Below, piece after piece: positions 42,592-50,344 of a stretch of 50,344 bases of DNA. Below the pieces are notes generated by a model. It had not been told where the DNA came from. It worked only from the letters and a program-made list of their open reading frames with translations, and made no database searches. The position numbers and the translations under genes are program-made. This DNA comes from Cytophagales bacterium CG12_big_fil_rev_8_21_14_0_65_40_12 (lineage in GTDB: Bacteria; Bacteroidota; Bacteroidia; Cytophagales; Cyclobacteriaceae), in the NCBI GenBank assembly GCA_002786855.1, contig PCUU01000019.1, forward strand, positions 1 through 50,344, written 5' to 3'. Numbering within the stretch: the stretch's first letter is position 1; every line of letters starts with the position of its first letter.

Positions 42592-43863
42592 TTAAATCAA
42601 ATGCCCAAATAAATCGGGTTGCTTGTTCAAGTATTCGAACTCGAAATTTTTCGATTTCATTTGGTTGAAAAGCGGCTCTAAATCAGTTTTTTTCTTCAAC
42701 TCGATACCAATTAGGGCGGGTCCTTTTTCTCTGGAAGTCTTTTTGGTGTACTCAAAATGCACAATGTCGTCTTCTGGCCCTAAAACTTCTGTCAAAAACT
42801 CTTTTAAGGCCCCAGCTCTTTGCGGAAAGCGAACAATGAAATAATGTTTAAGACCCTCGTAAAGTAAAGACCGCTCTCGGATTTCTTCAGTTCTCGAAAT
42901 ATCATTGTTCGAACCAGAGATCACACAGACCACATTCTTTCCTTTGATTTCGGCTGCAAATTGTTCCAAGGCAGATAAAGACAATGCTCCTGCAGGCTCG
43001 ACCACAATGGCATCGCGGTTATAGAGTTGCAACATGGTACTGCAAATTAAACCTTCGGGCACAGTTACCACTTCGTCCAATAACTCTTTACAAATGCTGA
43101 AATTGAGATGCCCCACTTGTTTTACGGCAGCACCATCGACAAACTTATCCATTTCTTTAAGTGGCAAATTTTCACCTGCTGCGATTGAGTTTTTCATTGC
43201 AGGGGCGCCTTCAGGCTCCACTCCTATGATTTTGGTATTGGGACTTAAGGTTTTGAATACTGCAGCAACGCCAGAAGCCAATCCACCGCCACCGATAGGC
43301 AGGAATAAGTAGTCTGTCGGAGCTAAAGTAGCTTGAAGGATTTCTAAGCCCACAGTTCCTTGTCCTTCGATTACTTTTTCATCGTCAAAAGGTGGGATGA
43401 AAATCCTGTCAGTTTCGTGGCAATAATGCTTGGCGAAGGCTTGTGCATCATCAAAAGTATCGCCTTTCAATACAATCTCGACAAATTCCTTCCCGAAAAA
43501 CGCGACTTGTTCTACCTTTTGCTTTGGAGTGGGTGCAGGCATAAAAATAGTCGCCTTCACCCCTAACTTCTGACAAGAATAAGCCACGCCTTGGGCATGG
43601 TTACCTGCACTTGCGCAAACAACACCCTGCCTTTTTTGGGCTTCCGATAATCCACTGATCTTGTGATAAGCACCACGAATCTTATAAGAGCGCACGATCT
43701 GTAAATCTTCGCGCTTAAAAACAATATTAGCCTTATACTTTTCTGAGAAAGTGAGGCTTTGCATTAAAGGAGTTCGCAAGACGACAGCTTTGAGCTTCTC
43801 CGCAGCTGCTTCAATGGCGTTTAAACTGGGTCGGTATGTTTGTGCTAACTTTTCGTTTTGCAT
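42592..43863 (-). CDS. ilvA: threonine deaminase (threonine ammonia-lyase)
   Basis: 423-residue PLP enzyme that makes 2-oxobutanoate from threonine, the first committed step to isoleucine. PLP Lys61 lies in SYKIRGA, and GGGGLASGV is the phosphate cradle. The C-terminus has one ACT-like regulatory domain (HYFIVRFPQRAGALKEFLTEVLG), shorter than the two-domain E. coli enzyme (514 residues), so isoleucine feedback could differ. Last gene of the ilv operon, 70 bases after ilvC with a hairpin in the gap. Confidence 0.96.
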   Translation of the reverse strand: MQNEKLAQTYRPSLNAIEAAAEKLKAVVLRTPLMQSLTFSEKYKANIVFKREDLQIVRSYKIRGAYHKISGLSEAQKRQGVVCASAGNHAQGVAYSCQKLGVKATIFMPAPTPKQKVEQVAFFGKEFVEIVLKGDTFDDAQAFAKHYCHETDRIFIPPFDDEKVIEGQGTVGLEILQATLAPTDYLFLPIGGGGLASGVAAVFKTLSPNTKIIGVEPEGAPAMKNSIAAGENLPLKEMDKFVDGAAVKQVGHLNFSICKELLDEVVTVPEGLICSTMLQLYNRDAIVVEPAGALSLSALEQFAAEIKGKNVVCVISGSNNDISRTEEIRERSLLYEGLKHYFIVRFPQRAGALKEFLTEVLGPEDDIVHFEYTKKTSREKGPALIGIELKKKTDLEPLFNQMKSKNFEFEYLNKQPDLFGHLI

Positions 43864-43933: not shown

Positions 43934-45010
43934 TTACACCAACTCTTCTTCCTTGACAACGGCAGGCGCATTTTCTGGTCTTAGGCTACGTACCGCTTTG
44001 CCTGCTTGCCACATTTCAGAATTTCTCAACGTATCGAGTTCTACTTCTAGTTTTGCTCGATAATCAGCTTGAGAGTTAGAATCAATAGATTTCTGTGCTT
44101 CAATACCCGCTTTTACTGAGGCATAAAGCTTCTCGAATACTGGTTTAGTGGCTTCGTAGAAAGGATCTTTCCAATCCAATGCACCACGTTGAGCCGTGGT
44201 TGAGCAGTTGGCATACATCCAATCCATTCCATTCTCAGCGATCAGCGGATACAATGATTGTGTTGCTTCTTCAACCGTTTCGTTAAAAGCTTCGGAAGGC
44301 GAATGACCATTGGCCCTTAACACCTCATACTGCGCTTGGAACAATCCTTGAATCGCCCCCATTAAAGTTCCTCTTTCGCCTGTAAGGTCGGAAGTCACTT
44401 CTTTGATGAAGGTGGTTTCGAATAAATAGCCAGAACCTACTGCTATACCTAAGGCAAGAATTCTATCTCTTGCTTTGCCAGTAGCATCTTGATGGATGGC
44501 GAATGAAGAATTCAAGCCTTTGCCAGCTACGAATAGTCTTCTCAAACTTGTGCCAGAACCTTTTGGTGCTACCAAAGCCACATCAATGTCCGCTGGAGGA
44601 ATAATGCCTGTTTTTTCAGCATAGGCCACTCCAAAACCATGAGAGAAATAAAGCATTTTGCCTGGGGTTAAATGTTTTTTCACTGTTGGCCAAAGCTGGA
44701 TTTGAGCGGCATCTGAAAGCAAGTAACAGATGACGGTCGCTTTTTCTAATGCTTCTTCGATTGGAAAAAGTGTTTTACCGGGCTCCCAACCATCTGCAAT
44801 GGCTTTGCCCCATGTTTTTGAATCTTGCCGCTGACCAACGATCACGTTGATGCCATTATCTTTCAAATTCAATGATTGACCTGGGCCTTGTACCCCATAA
44901 CCGATGATTGCGACTGTTTCATTTTTGAGCACTTCTTGTGCTTTTTCTAATGGAAATTCTTCTCGGGTAACTACATTTTCAATTACCCCTCCAAAATTAA
45001 TCTTTGCCAT
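43934..45010 (-). CDS. ilvC: ketol-acid reductoisomerase
   Basis: 358 residues, class I size. It converts acetolactate or acetohydroxybutyrate into the dihydroxy acids of the valine and isoleucine pathways using NADPH and Mg. The nucleotide-binding stretch IIGYGVQGPGQSLNLKDNG is at about 35-53. The C-terminal domain follows, with VTSDLTGERGTLMGAIQG and later metal-ligand-rich segments. It is fifth in the operon, 125 bases after ilvN; that gap holds a REP-like repeat. Confidence 0.96.
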   Translation of the reverse strand: MAKINFGGVIENVVTREEFPLEKAQEVLKNETVAIIGYGVQGPGQSLNLKDNGINVIVGQRQDSKTWGKAIADGWEPGKTLFPIEEALEKATVICYLLSDAAQIQLWPTVKKHLTPGKMLYFSHGFGVAYAEKTGIIPPADIDVALVAPKGSGTSLRRLFVAGKGLNSSFAIHQDATGKARDRILALGIAVGSGYLFETTFIKEVTSDLTGERGTLMGAIQGLFQAQYEVLRANGHSPSEAFNETVEEATQSLYPLIAENGMDWMYANCSTTAQRGALDWKDPFYEATKPVFEKLYASVKAGIEAQKSIDSNSQADYRAKLEVELDTLRNSEMWQAGKAVRSLRPENAPAVVKEEELV

Positions 45011-45135: not shown

Positions 45136-45642
45136 CTATTTCAATTCTTCTAATTCATCCATGGGTTTGATTACTGAAACTCTGCCTGAGCGAACAAACT
45201 CCAGCACGCCATAGGGTCTCAGAAATTCCAGTAAATCTTGTGTTTCTTCTTTATGCCCTGTCTTTTCAATGATCATAAAATCTTGCTCCATTGAAAGGAT
45301 TCGGGCATTGTTATCTCGAATCAAGGTTTCAACCAAATTGCCTTCAGCCACAGATTGAGTTGAAATCTTGTACAATGCAATTTCTTGAAACACAGTCTCT
45401 TCATCGATATGATAAACTGCTTTGAGCACCTCAACCTGTTTTTCGATTTGAAGTACCATTTTCTTGATTTGTTCTTCCGTAGTATGCACCACAATGGTAA
45501 ATCTGTAAATGCCCGGATTTTCAGATTCAGAACTATTGATACTGTCGATGTTGACATGTCTCCTTGTAAAAATGGAAGTAATTCGGTTCAGTAACCCAAC
45601 ACTGTTTTCGGAGAATATAGATATGGTATAAGCCCTTTCCAT
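45136..45642 (-). CDS. ilvN: acetolactate synthase small (regulatory) subunit
   Basis: 168-residue regulatory subunit carrying the N-terminal ACT domain (YTISIFSENSVGLLNRITSIFTRRHVNIDSIN), which binds valine for feedback, and a C-terminal half seen in longer IlvN/IlvH proteins. It activates the catalytic subunit encoded just upstream (3-base gap). Confidence 0.94.
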   Translation of the reverse strand: MERAYTISIFSENSVGLLNRITSIFTRRHVNIDSINSSESENPGIYRFTIVVHTTEEQIKKMVLQIEKQVEVLKAVYHIDEETVFQEIALYKISTQSVAEGNLVETLIRDNNARILSMEQDFMIIEKTGHKEETQDLLEFLRPYGVLEFVRSGRVSVIKPMDELEELK

Positions 45643-45645
45643 TGA

Positions 45646-47373
45646 TCAATCAAGTCTAATGTCCGAAACTGACGCCCCTGTCGGGATCATCGGAAATACA
45701 TTGTCTTCTTTTCCTACATGGACTTCAAGCAAATAGCTTCCGTCATGCCTAAGCATCTCTTTTACAGCACTTTCTAGCTCTTCTCTTTCAGTAACTGACT
45801 TAGCTTCAATCCGATAGCCTTTAGCGATTGCCACAAAATCTGGATTCACCATTTCTGTGGACGAATAGCGTTTATCAAAAAATAGCTGTTGCCACTGTCT
45901 GACCATTCCCAAGAATGAATTATTGAGAATGACAATCTTCACAGCCGCTTGTGTTTGAAAAATAGTACCCAATTCTTGGATTGTCATTTGAAAGCCGCCA
46001 TCACCAATTACAGCAATGACTTCTCTTTCTGGCGCACCCAATTTCGCTCCTAAAGCGGCAGGCAAGCAAAAGCCCATGGTGCCTAATCCACCAGAGGTGA
46101 TATTGCTCTTGGACTTGATGAACTTGGTATATCGACATGCAATCATTTGATGCTGCCCCACGTCCGTGACCAAAATCGCATCGCCTTGTGTGGTTTGGTT
46201 GATCTGATTGATGACTTCCGCCATCGAAATTGGACCAGTGGTCGGTTGTAATTCCTTATATATTACCTTTTCAGCTTCTACTTTGTCGTATTCCTTAAAT
46301 TTTGAACGCCAAGCTGAATGTGAGTTAAATTCAACCGCTTCGGTAAGTTCTGTAAGCGTTTCCTTACAATTCCCCAAAACAGGGATATCTATCTTTACAT
46401 TCTTATTGATTTCTGAAGGATCAATATCAAGGTGAATGATTTTAGCCTGTTTGGCATAGGTGGCGAGATTACCCGTTACACGATCGTCAAAGCGCATTCC
46501 GATGGCAATCAGCACATCGCATTCATTTGTCAACACATTGGGACCATAATTGCCGTGCATACCCAACATACCGACATTCAATGGATGATCGGTAGATAAT
46601 GCAGAAAGGCCTAAAAGCGTCCAAGCGGCCGGAATGCCTGTCTTTTCTATAAAGGCTCTAAATTCTTCTTCGGCATTGCCCAAAATCACCCCTTGACCGA
46701 AGAGCACAAATGGCTTTTTAGCTGAATTAATCAGCGCAGCAGCCTTCCTTACTTGATTTAAATCAATCTCAGGAACTGGCTTATAGCTTCTGATTTGTTC
46801 GCATTTACGGTATTCAAAATCCAAACTCGCAAATTGAGCATCTTTGGTAATATCAATCAAAACTGGTCCTGGTCTTCCTGACTTGGCGATGAAAAAAGCC
46901 CTTGCCAAAGCAGCGGGTAAATCTTCCGCCTTGGTCACTTGATAATTCCATTTGGTCGCTGGCATGGAGATGCTGATGATATCCGTTTCCTGAAAAGCAT
47001 CCGAACCCAATAAATGAGAACCAACTTGGCCAGTGATGCACACCAATGGTGTAGAATCTATCATCGCATCGGCAATACCGGTAATAAGGTTAGTTGCTCC
47101 TGGGCCAGAAGTGGCCAAAACCACCCCTACCTTGCCAGTGGCACGTGCATAGCCTTGAGCAGCATGAATAGCGCCTTGCTCATGACGTGTCATGACATGG
47201 CGGACGCGATCTTGGTAATGATAGAGGGCATCATACACAGGCATGATGGCTCCACCCGGATAACCAAAAATCAAATCAACATCTTCTTCCACAAGCGAAC
47301 GCAAAACAGCATCTGCACCAGTGGTTTTCAATTTTGCCTGAATGGGCGGGGTGAGTGTAGCTTCTAAATACAT
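45646..47373 (-). CDS. ilvB: acetolactate synthase large (catalytic) subunit
   Basis: 575-residue ThDP-dependent enzyme that makes acetolactate and acetohydroxybutyrate. The catalytic Glu is in RHEQGAIHAAQGYARATGK; the FAD/middle domain follows; the ThDP-binding GDGGFQMTIQELGTIF and NNSFLGMVRQWQ blocks are near the C-terminus. Length is typical. It begins 1 base after ilvD and is translationally close to both neighbours. Confidence 0.96.
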   Translation of the reverse strand: MYLEATLTPPIQAKLKTTGADAVLRSLVEEDVDLIFGYPGGAIMPVYDALYHYQDRVRHVMTRHEQGAIHAAQGYARATGKVGVVLATSGPGATNLITGIADAMIDSTPLVCITGQVGSHLLGSDAFQETDIISISMPATKWNYQVTKAEDLPAALARAFFIAKSGRPGPVLIDITKDAQFASLDFEYRKCEQIRSYKPVPEIDLNQVRKAAALINSAKKPFVLFGQGVILGNAEEEFRAFIEKTGIPAAWTLLGLSALSTDHPLNVGMLGMHGNYGPNVLTNECDVLIAIGMRFDDRVTGNLATYAKQAKIIHLDIDPSEINKNVKIDIPVLGNCKETLTELTEAVEFNSHSAWRSKFKEYDKVEAEKVIYKELQPTTGPISMAEVINQINQTTQGDAILVTDVGQHQMIACRYTKFIKSKSNITSGGLGTMGFCLPAALGAKLGAPEREVIAVIGDGGFQMTIQELGTIFQTQAAVKIVILNNSFLGMVRQWQQLFFDKRYSSTEMVNPDFVAIAKGYRIEAKSVTEREELESAVKEMLRHDGSYLLEVHVGKEDNVFPMIPTGASVSDIRLD

Positions 47374-47374
47374 A

Positions 47375-49048
47375 TTATAGATCGGTTACACAGCCTTCCG
47401 AAGCTGAAGCCACGGTTTTGGCATATTTATACAATGCACCTCGGGTTACCTTTAATGGTGGTGCTACCCAAGCTGCTTTTCTTTGTGCTAATTCAGCATC
47501 TGGAATATCCAGCGAAATCGTATTGTTGATCGCATCAATGGTAATTGGATCACCATCTTTTACCATGGCAATTGTTCCTCCTTCTTGCGCTTCTGGAGTC
47601 ACGTGTCCTACCACAAAGCCATGGCTTCCACCAGAGAAACGACCATCAGTAATCAAAGCAACTGTTTTCCCTAAACCTGCTCCCATAATGGCCGAAGTAG
47701 GTTTTAACATCTCAGGCATTCCTGGGCCTCCTTTTGGGCCTTCATACCTGATCACCACAACATGCCCCGATTTCACTTTTCCTTCTCTTATGCCTTTTAT
47801 GGCCGAAAACTCATCATCAAAAACAACTGCTGTTCCTTCGAATCTTTCTCCTTCGTGACCTGTGATTTTTGCCACTGCACCCGATTCGGCCAAGTTGCCG
47901 AACAACATTTGCAAATGCCCTTCTGGCTTAATGGGATTATCAAGCGGTCTTAAAACAGATTGACCTTCTTTAAGCGAAGGCACTTGCGCTAAGTTTTCGG
48001 CTATGGTTTTTCCTGTAACAGTCATGCAATCGCCATGAAGCATGCCTTCTTCCAGCATAAACTTCATTACCGCTGGCACTCCTCCTACTTCGAAGAGATC
48101 TTCCATCAGGTATTTACCGCTAGGTTTTAAATCACCAAGAAGTGGCGTACTATCAGAAAGTCTTTGGAAATCCGCTAAAGTCAAATCAATATCAACGCTT
48201 TTGGCAATGGCGATCAAATGCATTACGGCATTGGTAGAACCTCCCAAAACAATGATGACTCGAATGGCATTTTCAAATGACTTTTTAGTGAGGATATCGC
48301 TAGGTTTCAGGTCTATTTCGAGCAAATGCCTGATCGCTTTGCCTATATCTTCACATTCCTGTGCTTTTTCTTTGCTCACTGCTGGGTTTGACGAACCATA
48401 GGGAAGCGCCATGCCTAAAGCCTCAATAGCAGATGACATGGTATTGGCCGTGTACATTCCACCACAAGCGCCCGCACCTGGGCAGGAATTTTTGATGATA
48501 CCTTTATAATCTTCTTCTGAGATATTGCCAGCGAACTTTTCGCCCAATGCTTCAAATGAAGAAACGATATTGAGCTTTTTGTCTTTGTAGCAGCCAGAAG
48601 CAATTGTACCTCCATAGAGCATAATGGAAGGTCTATTCAACCGAGCCATCGCTATGATGGCACCTGGCATATTTTTATCACAACCTACCACAGCGACTAT
48701 GCCATCGTAATAATGCGCACCCGCAACGGCTTCGATGGAATCTGCAATAATCTCGCGTGAGACCAAAGAGTAACGCATACCCTCTGTTCCATTCGCGATG
48801 CCATCACTCACTCCAATGGTATGATAAATCAGGCCAACCAAGTCATTTTTCCATACACTGGCTTTCACTTGAGCTGCTAAATCGTTCAAGTGCATATTGC
48901 AAGTATTACCTTCATAACCCGTGCTGACAACACCTACTTGGGCCTTTTTTAAGTCCTCTTCTGTCAAACCAATGCCATAAAGCATTGCCTGAGAAGCAGG
49001 TTGCGTCTCATCTTGGGTCAGTCGTTTGCTGTACTTATTCAGTTCCAT
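47375..49048 (-). CDS. ilvD: dihydroxy-acid dehydratase
   Basis: 557-residue Fe-S dehydratase producing 2-keto acids for valine and isoleucine. Cluster-binding Cys residues lie in [17 protein letters not shown] and [18 protein letters not shown]. The [15 protein letters not shown] segment near the C-terminus is conserved. It overlaps ilvE by one base (stop/start sharing), so it is translationally coupled. Confidence 0.96.
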
Positions 49049-49938
49049 TAGGCTTTTGCTAATAATTTGCGTGAAGGTTTTCGAATCAATTTTTTGTATT
49101 CCTGAGCGATTTTATAGCCAATGGTTTGTTCCCATGGCTTTTTGAATGGGATGCCATCAAGAGATTGAATGCCTGCTATTTCGACTGCAGTACCAGTAAA
49201 AAATGCACCATCGGCTCCTTTGACTTTCTGCGGTGGAAAATAGGTTTCAATCACTTCATAGCCCAAATCATGTGCTATTTCAATCGTTGTAGCACGTGTG
49301 ATACCAGGAAGAATATTACCCAATGGCGGTGTATAGAGCACATTATCTCTTTCAAAAAAGAAATTCGCTCCACTTCCTTCGGCTACCGAGCCGTTGGCAT
49401 CTAAAAGCAGTGCTTCATCAAAACCTTTGCTCTTTGCTTCTGTAGTTGCGAGGATAGAATTAGTGTAATGCCCTGTTACTTTGGCTTCAACAGGAACCGA
49501 TTTTGGGTTTGGTCTTTCGTAAGAAGAAACCAACACATTCGATAGTTTATCGCCAAGATAATTGGCCCATTTCCATGCACAGAAGAACAAGTGCACTTCA
49601 TTCACCGGACTCAAAGACATATTTGCGCCAAGGAAAATTAGCGGCCTGATGTAGGCACCTTTCAGATTGTTCCTTTCAAGCAGTTCGTAGCTGATTTGAG
49701 TTAATTCTTCAACCGTATAATTGCACTTGATGTGCATTTTCTTGGCAGAATCTAACAGTCGCTCGTAATGGGCTGCTGCTTTAAAAATGGATGCTTCACC
49801 TTCTGCTTCGTAGGAACGAATTCCTTCAAAAACGCCACTTCCATAATGGATGCTTTGGCTATACAAACTGAAGTTGGCATCAGTAGCTTTGAGCCACTTA
49901 CCATCCAAGTATACTATTGTGTCTTCGCTGTAATACAT
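49048..49938 (-). CDS. ilvE: branched-chain amino acid aminotransferase
   Basis: 296-residue class IV PLP aminotransferase catalysing the last step of isoleucine and valine synthesis (and leucine). The PLP Lys153 is in [26 protein letters not shown] and [17 protein letters not shown] are the family blocks, and [16 protein letters not shown] the phosphate-binding region. It is the first structural gene of the operon, about 190 bases after the attenuator terminator, so its expression should be under the control of the leader. Confidence 0.95.
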
Positions 49939-50126
49939 AATACTAGTGTTTAAACTTATTGATTAACTATGTGCCTTTAGGGCTTGATTTTACATGTTCT
50001 ACAATTTTTAATTCGTGTATTCTAAATTTTATCTTCTTATTAATCAGTCACTTAATGCTTTTACGCCTACAGTTTTAAGTTGCTCCGATTCTCATTCTCT
50101 TCCTGCATTCATTTGTTAAATCGACA

Positions 50127-50159
50127 TAAAAAAAGCCTTTCTCTTGGGTGAGAAAGGCT
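50127..50159 (-). terminator. ilv attenuator terminator
   Basis: On the minus strand AGCCTTTCTC, loop ACCCAA, GAGAAAGGCT gives a perfect 10-bp stem followed by an uninterrupted run of U. It is placed between the leader peptide (stop at 50187) and ilvE. This is the classical position of an attenuation terminator. The 5' arm and loop can alternatively pair with the leader mRNA at its stop codon (see the leader entry). Confidence 0.93.
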
Positions 50160-50192
50160 CCTATTTCATGACAATAGCGTTCCATCTCACCC
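50146..50192 (-). promoter_or_regulatory. alternative (antiterminator) pairing of the ilv leader RNA
   Basis: GGGTGAGA at 50185-50192 on the minus strand, overlapping the leader UGA, is the exact complement of UCUCACCC at 50146-50153, which is the top of the terminator's 5' arm plus loop. Forming these 8 pairs breaks the terminator. A ribosome stalled on Thr/Val/Ile codons leaves the segment free (read-through); one reaching the stop covers it (termination). Confidence 0.72.
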
Positions 50193-50240
50193 CGTTTCCG
50201 TGGTAATAATGACTACTGTAATGACTGTGTACTTTTTCAT
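50187..50240 (-). CDS. ilv operon leader peptide (Thr-Val-Ile rich)
   Basis: A 17-codon frame on the minus strand, too short for usual gene calling, reads MKKYTVITVVIITTETG followed by TGA. Residues 5-14 are ten successive Thr, Val or Ile residues; overall there are 5 Thr, 3 Val and 3 Ile, with no Leu. These are the pathway's products (Ile, Val) and its precursor (Thr, the substrate of IlvA). It is followed after 27 bases by a strong terminator and then ilvE. This is the hallmark of ribosome-mediated attenuation, as in the enterobacterial ilv and thr operons; the sequence itself is unrelated to those leaders. Confidence 0.88.
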   Translation of the reverse strand: MKKYTVITVVIITTETG

Positions 50241-50256
50241 TTCTAATCTTTTGTTA

Positions 50257-50307
50257 GTCATCCTGAGACTTAATATTTTGGTTTCAAAACACACAAAACA
50301 GGATGAC
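50257..50307. repeat. GTCATCCTG...CAGGATGAC inverted repeat
   Basis: A perfect 9-bp inverted repeat with a 33-base loop lies just upstream of the leader peptide ATG. The TCATCCTGAG end is like the elements at about 1.53 and 38.7 kb, so it may be a REP-family copy, but in this place it could also shape the 5' end of the ilv leader RNA. Confidence 0.5.
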
Positions 50308-50344
50308 GTTTGTTAGCTTCGATCGATAAGATATGCAAAATGGC

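Follow-up and report, generated by a model that had tools for sequence, protein, structure and literature searches.

What is the role of a very short reading frame, built largely of threonine, valine and isoleucine codons, that lies in front of a branched-chain amino acid operon in a member of the Cytophagales? The window analysed here, a stretch of 50,344 nucleotides from the genome of Cytophagales bacterium CG12_big_fil_rev_8_21_14_0_65_40_12, carries on its minus strand ilvE (49048..49938, with its start at 49938), ilvD (47375..49048), ilvB (45646..47373), ilvN (45136..45642), ilvC (43934..45010) and, as the last gene of the operon, ilvA (42592..43863), which encodes threonine ammonia-lyase. 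The genes were delimited as open reading frames and all six products were named by NCBIfam models above their cut-offs. The ilv genes, leuA-D, thrA and thrB were named in the same way, above cut-offs, on the window and on the loci L116 and L036; the operon labels given to relatives come from reference proteins chosen by eye. Upstream of ilvE, also on the minus strand, the segment 50240..50187 encodes MKKYTVITVVIITTETG, in which ten successive codons specify Thr, Val or Ile (TVITVVIITT, the regulatory codons 5-14). The initial annotation had described exactly this order, a frame of 17 residues with ten such codons, then a terminator, then ilvE-D-B-N-C-A, without naming the strand, and our analysis confirms it. 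When the 406 nt before ilvE were shuffled 5000 times with their dinucleotide composition kept, no run of ten appeared (the maximum was seven), and among the 1420 distinct short frames of the window a Thr/Val/Ile run of at least six is found in three and a run of ten in MKKYTVITVVIITTETG alone. The window leader is, in short, a frame with clustered codons for the end products of its operon.

Between this leader and the first structural gene lies an intrinsic terminator, a hairpin with a T tail at 50162..50131 on the minus strand, delimited by a hairpin scan, by relatives and by alignment, and beginning 24 nt after the leader stop codon. The distance from that stop to ilvE is 248 nt. The segment 50100-50250, which comprises leader and terminator, folds 4.2 standard deviations better than its shuffles; a scan restricted to promoters of the sigma-70 type gave no match in 49900-50344. 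Folding and a 10-genome alignment delimit region 1 (ACAGTAG, 50213..50219, minus strand), which can pair with CTATTGT (50171..50177, minus strand) in a 1:2 hairpin whose cells are 95.7% paired across the 10 genomes, without covariation. Region 2 (GGGTGAGA, 50185..50192, minus strand) is the antiterminator strand and overlaps the leader stop codon; it was placed by swapped arms, a ribosome-footprint model and alignment. Its partner, region 3 (TCTCACCC, 50146..50153, minus strand), takes in the end of the 5' arm of the terminator and its loop, as judged from the footprint model and alignments.

A close IlvE is encoded in 10 of the 19 genomes of the genus, the window's genome and nine others; the remaining nine have no close match, as if their ilv operon had been lost or replaced. 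The initial annotation had let the leader stand or fall with its presence in relatives, and when the nine other operon-bearing genomes of the genus were checked for the frame, every one was found to keep not one but two complete leader-terminator modules upstream of ilvE, each module with its frame, its terminator and a possible antiterminator. The single leader first described before ilvE is the downstream module of such a series, and its upstream partner lies beyond the contig end. In Roseivirga pacifica (L036), MKAIINIQTIITIVVEPQ and a terminator are followed by MKLYNTIITVVIITCPPG and a terminator; genome G150 has the same two leaders, and ThrB is 100% identical between G150 and L036. Positions 22-39 of the window leader (ACAGTAGTCATTATTACC) are identical in all ten module-2 sequences of the genus. 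A strict DNA pattern for module 2 matched 2 of 148 family genomes, both of the same genus, a figure to be read as a floor only, since the pattern misses even the window's own copy, which has one Ile codon fewer.

The device extends well beyond the genus. An IlvE search of 148 genomes of the order gave matches in 136, and 30 matches were turned into loci; in a scan of named genomes the best 80 loci were taken, among which the closest is that of Roseivirga pacifica (70%), and 75 of them could be examined upstream of ilvE. A module was scored where a leader with at least seven I/V/L/T in ten codons (at least eight at a stricter score) preceded a terminator. By this measure 60 of the 75 loci examined among the best 80 carry leader and terminator before ilvE, and 51 still do so when the stricter score is applied. 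On the reverse strand the corresponding numbers are 5 and 4 of 75, and in each of six shuffled sets they are 0 or 1 and 0. Three of the 60 calls, L108, L109 and L113, all from Sphingobacterium or its family, look spurious, being GTG frames far upstream, and 15 of the 75 loci gave no leader module upstream of ilvE. In L106 and in L102 and L112 (Sphingobacterium) an ilvE-led operon was seen with no leader module found upstream, and its control may differ there. The record titles of the module-bearing loci include Chryseolinea, Cyclobacteriaceae, Chitinophaga, Tenacibaculum, Flavobacterium, Chryseobacterium and Pedobacter. Leader and terminator are therefore kept in relatives, a pattern that points to ribosome-mediated attenuation as a common means of controlling ilvE-led operons in much of the Bacteroidota.

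We judge it very probable that the element in the window attenuates transcription through a translating ribosome, in the manner of the trp/his/ilv leaders, and that it comes second in a serial pair. When charged Thr-, Val- and Ile-tRNA are all sufficient, a ribosome would reach the leader stop codon and cover region 2, leaving region 3 free to enter the 3:4 terminator, and transcription would end before ilvE. A shortage of any of the three would stall the ribosome within codons 5-14; region 2 (GGGUGAGA), left free, would then pair with region 3 (UCUCACCC), no terminator would form and ilvEDBNCA would be transcribed. Where the initial annotation spoke of translational attenuation, what we propose is termination of transcription under the control of a translating ribosome. 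The frames, the terminators, the possible antiterminators, their conservation, the covarying positions and the serial order in relatives can all be read from the sequences; stalling, read-through and the multiplication discussed below are the behaviour that we infer for them.

The predicted switch can be examined by computation at several levels. Swapped terminator arms were compared in 73 modules, with four low-scoring loci left out (L108, L109, L113 and L120, of which L120 has an ATG leader that is weak yet plausible). In 71 of the 73, pairing between region 2, at the leader stop, and the terminator arm of the same locus is better than the mean over swapped arms, the misses being L037 and L104. 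The median pairing energy is -15.2 kcal/mol with the own arm and -10.3 kcal/mol with swapped arms; the own-arm value ranks among the best 10% of swaps for 43 of the 73 modules and is better than the reversed control for 61. In the ten module-2 sequences of the genus the antiterminator is 96.3% paired, a value that falls to 24-68% on sliding by 1-3 columns, and the terminator is 99% paired. One antiterminator position changes from GC to AU in three of the ten sequences, probably a single event in one subclade, and the same column gives a U-G wobble in the terminator. For the antiterminator, paired cells and covariation score lie above 499 of 500 shuffles, while two of five measures do not exceed the shuffles in these ten sequences: pairs changed on both sides (reached by 235 of 500) and the number of pair types (reached by 445 of 500).

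In the ribosome-footprint model, the transcript is cut before the 3' arm of the terminator in the 20 genus modules, and the upstream pairing of region 3 is followed as the ribosome moves. Its genus mean is 0.61 with the ribosome on the Thr/Ile/Val codons, 0.24 with the ribosome at the stop and 0.57 with none; for the window module the values are 0.61, 0.12 and 0.66. The direction is the expected one in 19 of 20 modules, so that an exclusive antiterminator whose 5' strand is covered at the stop is found by computation everywhere in this set except in module 1 of G119. Equilibrium folds of whole modules with ribosome masks were also tried and set aside as hardly discriminating: the terminator is favoured without a ribosome in all 20 genus modules and also at most stall positions, the window included, and the fold flips at a few positions only in modules 1 and 2 of G132, module 1 of G150, module 2 of G157 and module 1 of G162. 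The attenuator model therefore needs the order in which the structures arise during transcription. Since the antiterminator forms without a ribosome in the truncated folds, an untranslated transcript may read through, a possible difference from the textbook attenuator, in which a 1:2 hairpin allows termination when translation is absent. Taken with the 60 of 75 named loci and the nine of nine genus relatives, these antiterminator tests give strong support to the idea, already present in the initial annotation, of attenuation by a leader peptide.

The same region could be imagined to act without its peptide. Were the short frame incidental, the RNA might be a riboswitch or a T-box leader, binding a ligand or a tRNA and ending in a terminator, and the structured leader region and the recurrence of terminators in relatives are what such an RNA would also display. 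We regard this as highly improbable: in the window region and seven related stretches no Rfam family reached its gathering score, a tRNA in the related stretches aside, the three weak matches in the window region all falling below that cut-off; the leader peptides of the genus remain rich in Thr, Val and Ile though their flanks vary; and in all 20 genus modules region 2 is located on the leader stop codon or closely behind it. Alternatively the leader could work through translation, by reinitiation or by exposing the ribosome site of ilvE, rather than through termination. Korolev et al. (PMC4833913) propose reinitiation from gene-proximal leader frames, whose distances peak at 11-14 bp in Bacteroidetes; here the leader stop and ilvE are 248 nt apart with a T-run terminator between them, and we accord this mechanism next to no probability.

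In the genus, a transcript would pass an upstream module of like build before reaching the one in front of ilvE, so that read-through would multiply and the response would become steeper. We rather favour the view that this genus, like some Flavobacteriales, gates branched-chain amino-acid synthesis by two complete, serial, ribosome-read attenuators on one transcript, each responding to much the same set of amino acids, and that insertion of an IS110-family element uncoupled the pair in the window's strain. Read-through would then approximate two stalling events multiplied together, giving a starvation switch that is steep and AND-like. It could instead be that only one module matters, the upstream frame with its terminator being either part of some other unit or a duplicate in decay. 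That most module-bearing loci outside the genus have one module before ilvE would suit this simpler view, as would the situation in the window's own genome, where each module sits on a contig of its own and each of these contigs carries an IS end. Against it, both modules are kept in all nine operon-bearing relatives with frame, terminator and possible antiterminator, and serial modules recur outside the genus, in Chryseobacterium lathyri, three Tenacibaculum loci and a Bacteroidia metagenome-assembled genome, and at a looser score in Flavobacterium sp. SUN046 (a Myroides case is doubtful); a single functional module therefore seems to us a rather unlikely explanation. If two serial attenuators are at work, their arrangement offers a clean test of whether attenuators multiply.

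The presumed insertion can be followed on both sides. The window contig (C40) ends 104 bp upstream of the start of the module-2 leader, inside a repeat common to C90, C77 and C82; the segment at about 50262..50344 on the plus strand, recognised by repeat comparison and domains, is one end of an IS110-family element and is identical to the start of C77, where the repeat continues into a reading frame that encodes DEDD_Tnp_IS110 and Transposase_20 domains. If the window copy is built like the C77 copy, its transposase points opposite to the operon. Module 1 of this genome, with the leader MNAITIITTSIITVVGT, is found at the end of contig C19, a contig that stops within the opposite end of this element; the module was located by BLAST with a relative's module, a pattern search of C19 having given nothing. 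The flanks on C19 and C40 resemble halves of a palindrome of the kind found between the two modules of G132. Six flanks of the element (on C19, C40, C57, C90 and at both ends of C82) resemble halves of similar palindromes, as if this element, present in several copies in the genome, targeted them. Because the flanks of the copies on C57, C82 and C90 look alike, the basis for connecting C19 with C40 is synteny with relatives, by which the element seems to lie between the two modules and the window's genome would be the tenth of the genus with the serial order. Module 2 may therefore be fed here by transcription that starts in, or crosses, the element, which would make the insertion a natural separation of two attenuators.

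The initial annotation had read the Thr codons of the leader as a match to ilvA, a view at odds with the many relatives that have ilvA in the stretch and few or no Thr codons in their leader. We compared leader content and gene content in 55 of 63 module-bearing loci, excluding 8 with incomplete stretches after L108, L109, L113 and L120 had already been dropped. Leu makes up 0.34 of the regulatory codons in the 10 loci that have leu genes downstream, against 0.13 in the other 45; for Thr the share is 0.15 in the 8 loci where thr genes follow on the same strand and 0.06 in the other 47. In these comparisons a downstream position does not imply one transcript, and the P values ignore kinship. 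With leu genes upstream there is no rise, the Leu share being 0.09 (16 loci) against 0.20 without (39). Leader content thus follows operon content partly, and in this leader family the amino-acid content can be read from the leader itself. Thr codons as a mark of thr genes in the operon were considered and rejected: ThrB is found in 8 of the 19 genus genomes, five of the ten operon-bearing ones have no ThrB match, and leaders keep their Thr codons either way. The window's genome gave no match to ThrB and no full-length match to the bifunctional ThrA, and threonine auxotrophy of the organism is possible. On its contig C7 a homoserine dehydrogenase gene has as its neighbour a MetX-like gene whose score falls short of the NCBIfam cut-offs. 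As for leucine, leuACDB of this genome lies on C41, apart from the ilv operon and with no credible leader before it, which fits the absence of Leu from the window leader; a few genus leaders have one or two Leu, outside or at the edge of the Thr/Ile/Val run. A leader rich in Leu, defined as 5 Leu in 8 codons, was found before the first leu gene in none of 21 leu-ilv clusters examined; three clusters lie too near a contig end. Eight clusters (L046, L065, L069, L076, L085, L087, L096 and L099) have an attenuator between leuB and ilvE; a Leu-rich leader before leuA was not found in these.

The leader of the enterobacterial ilvGMEDA operon, ilvL, has many Leu codons and stands alone. The window system resembles ilvL and thrL in a leader rich in the amino acids of its operon, an antiterminator over the end of the leader and a terminator before the first gene; it differs from ilvL in having Thr and no Leu and in being the second of two in series. 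The Bacteroidota literature that we found on ribosome-mediated attenuation consists of brief mentions. A comparative study of attenuation by Lopatovskaya et al. (2010) may cover Bacteroidetes. The Bacteroid-trp motif, judging by its name, presumably belongs to trp genes, a different operon. This motif (RF01692), found in Bacteroidetes and scored as cis-regulatory (PMC2864571), is unmatched in the window region and the seven related stretches. Frames rich in branched-chain codons before ilv genes are shared with the Corynebacterium ilvBNC uORF and with the ilvB-OMG and Leptospira ilvB motifs, the latter two with leaders also rich in threonine codons (PMC10272879); these have another first gene and no Rfam match in the window region or the seven related stretches, and the main text of that paper contains no word starting 'Bacteroid'. 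Within the phylum, Bacteroides thetaiotaomicron has long 5' UTRs whose short frames have been called reminiscent of attenuation leader peptides (PMC7366714), the example being a hypothetical gene and 'ilv' being absent from the main text. For Flavobacterium psychrophilum, a published account speaks of 'strong clues' that leader peptides in front of amino-acid operons act by attenuation (PMC9723704), in a main text without 'ilv' and with no serial modules in its section 19. With these clues and a device so widespread in Bacteroidota, the suggestion in the initial annotation of an independent example finds no support.

In the open-access literature we found no serial leader-peptide attenuator of an amino-acid operon. 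The nearest serial case that we found is the pair of tandem attenuators of Salmonella mgtCBR (PMC3641672), which precedes an operon for a Mg2+ transporter and a virulence protein rather than an amino-acid pathway. Leader-peptide attenuation is therefore a known mechanism, in Bacteroidota as elsewhere, and the newer part is its serial build.
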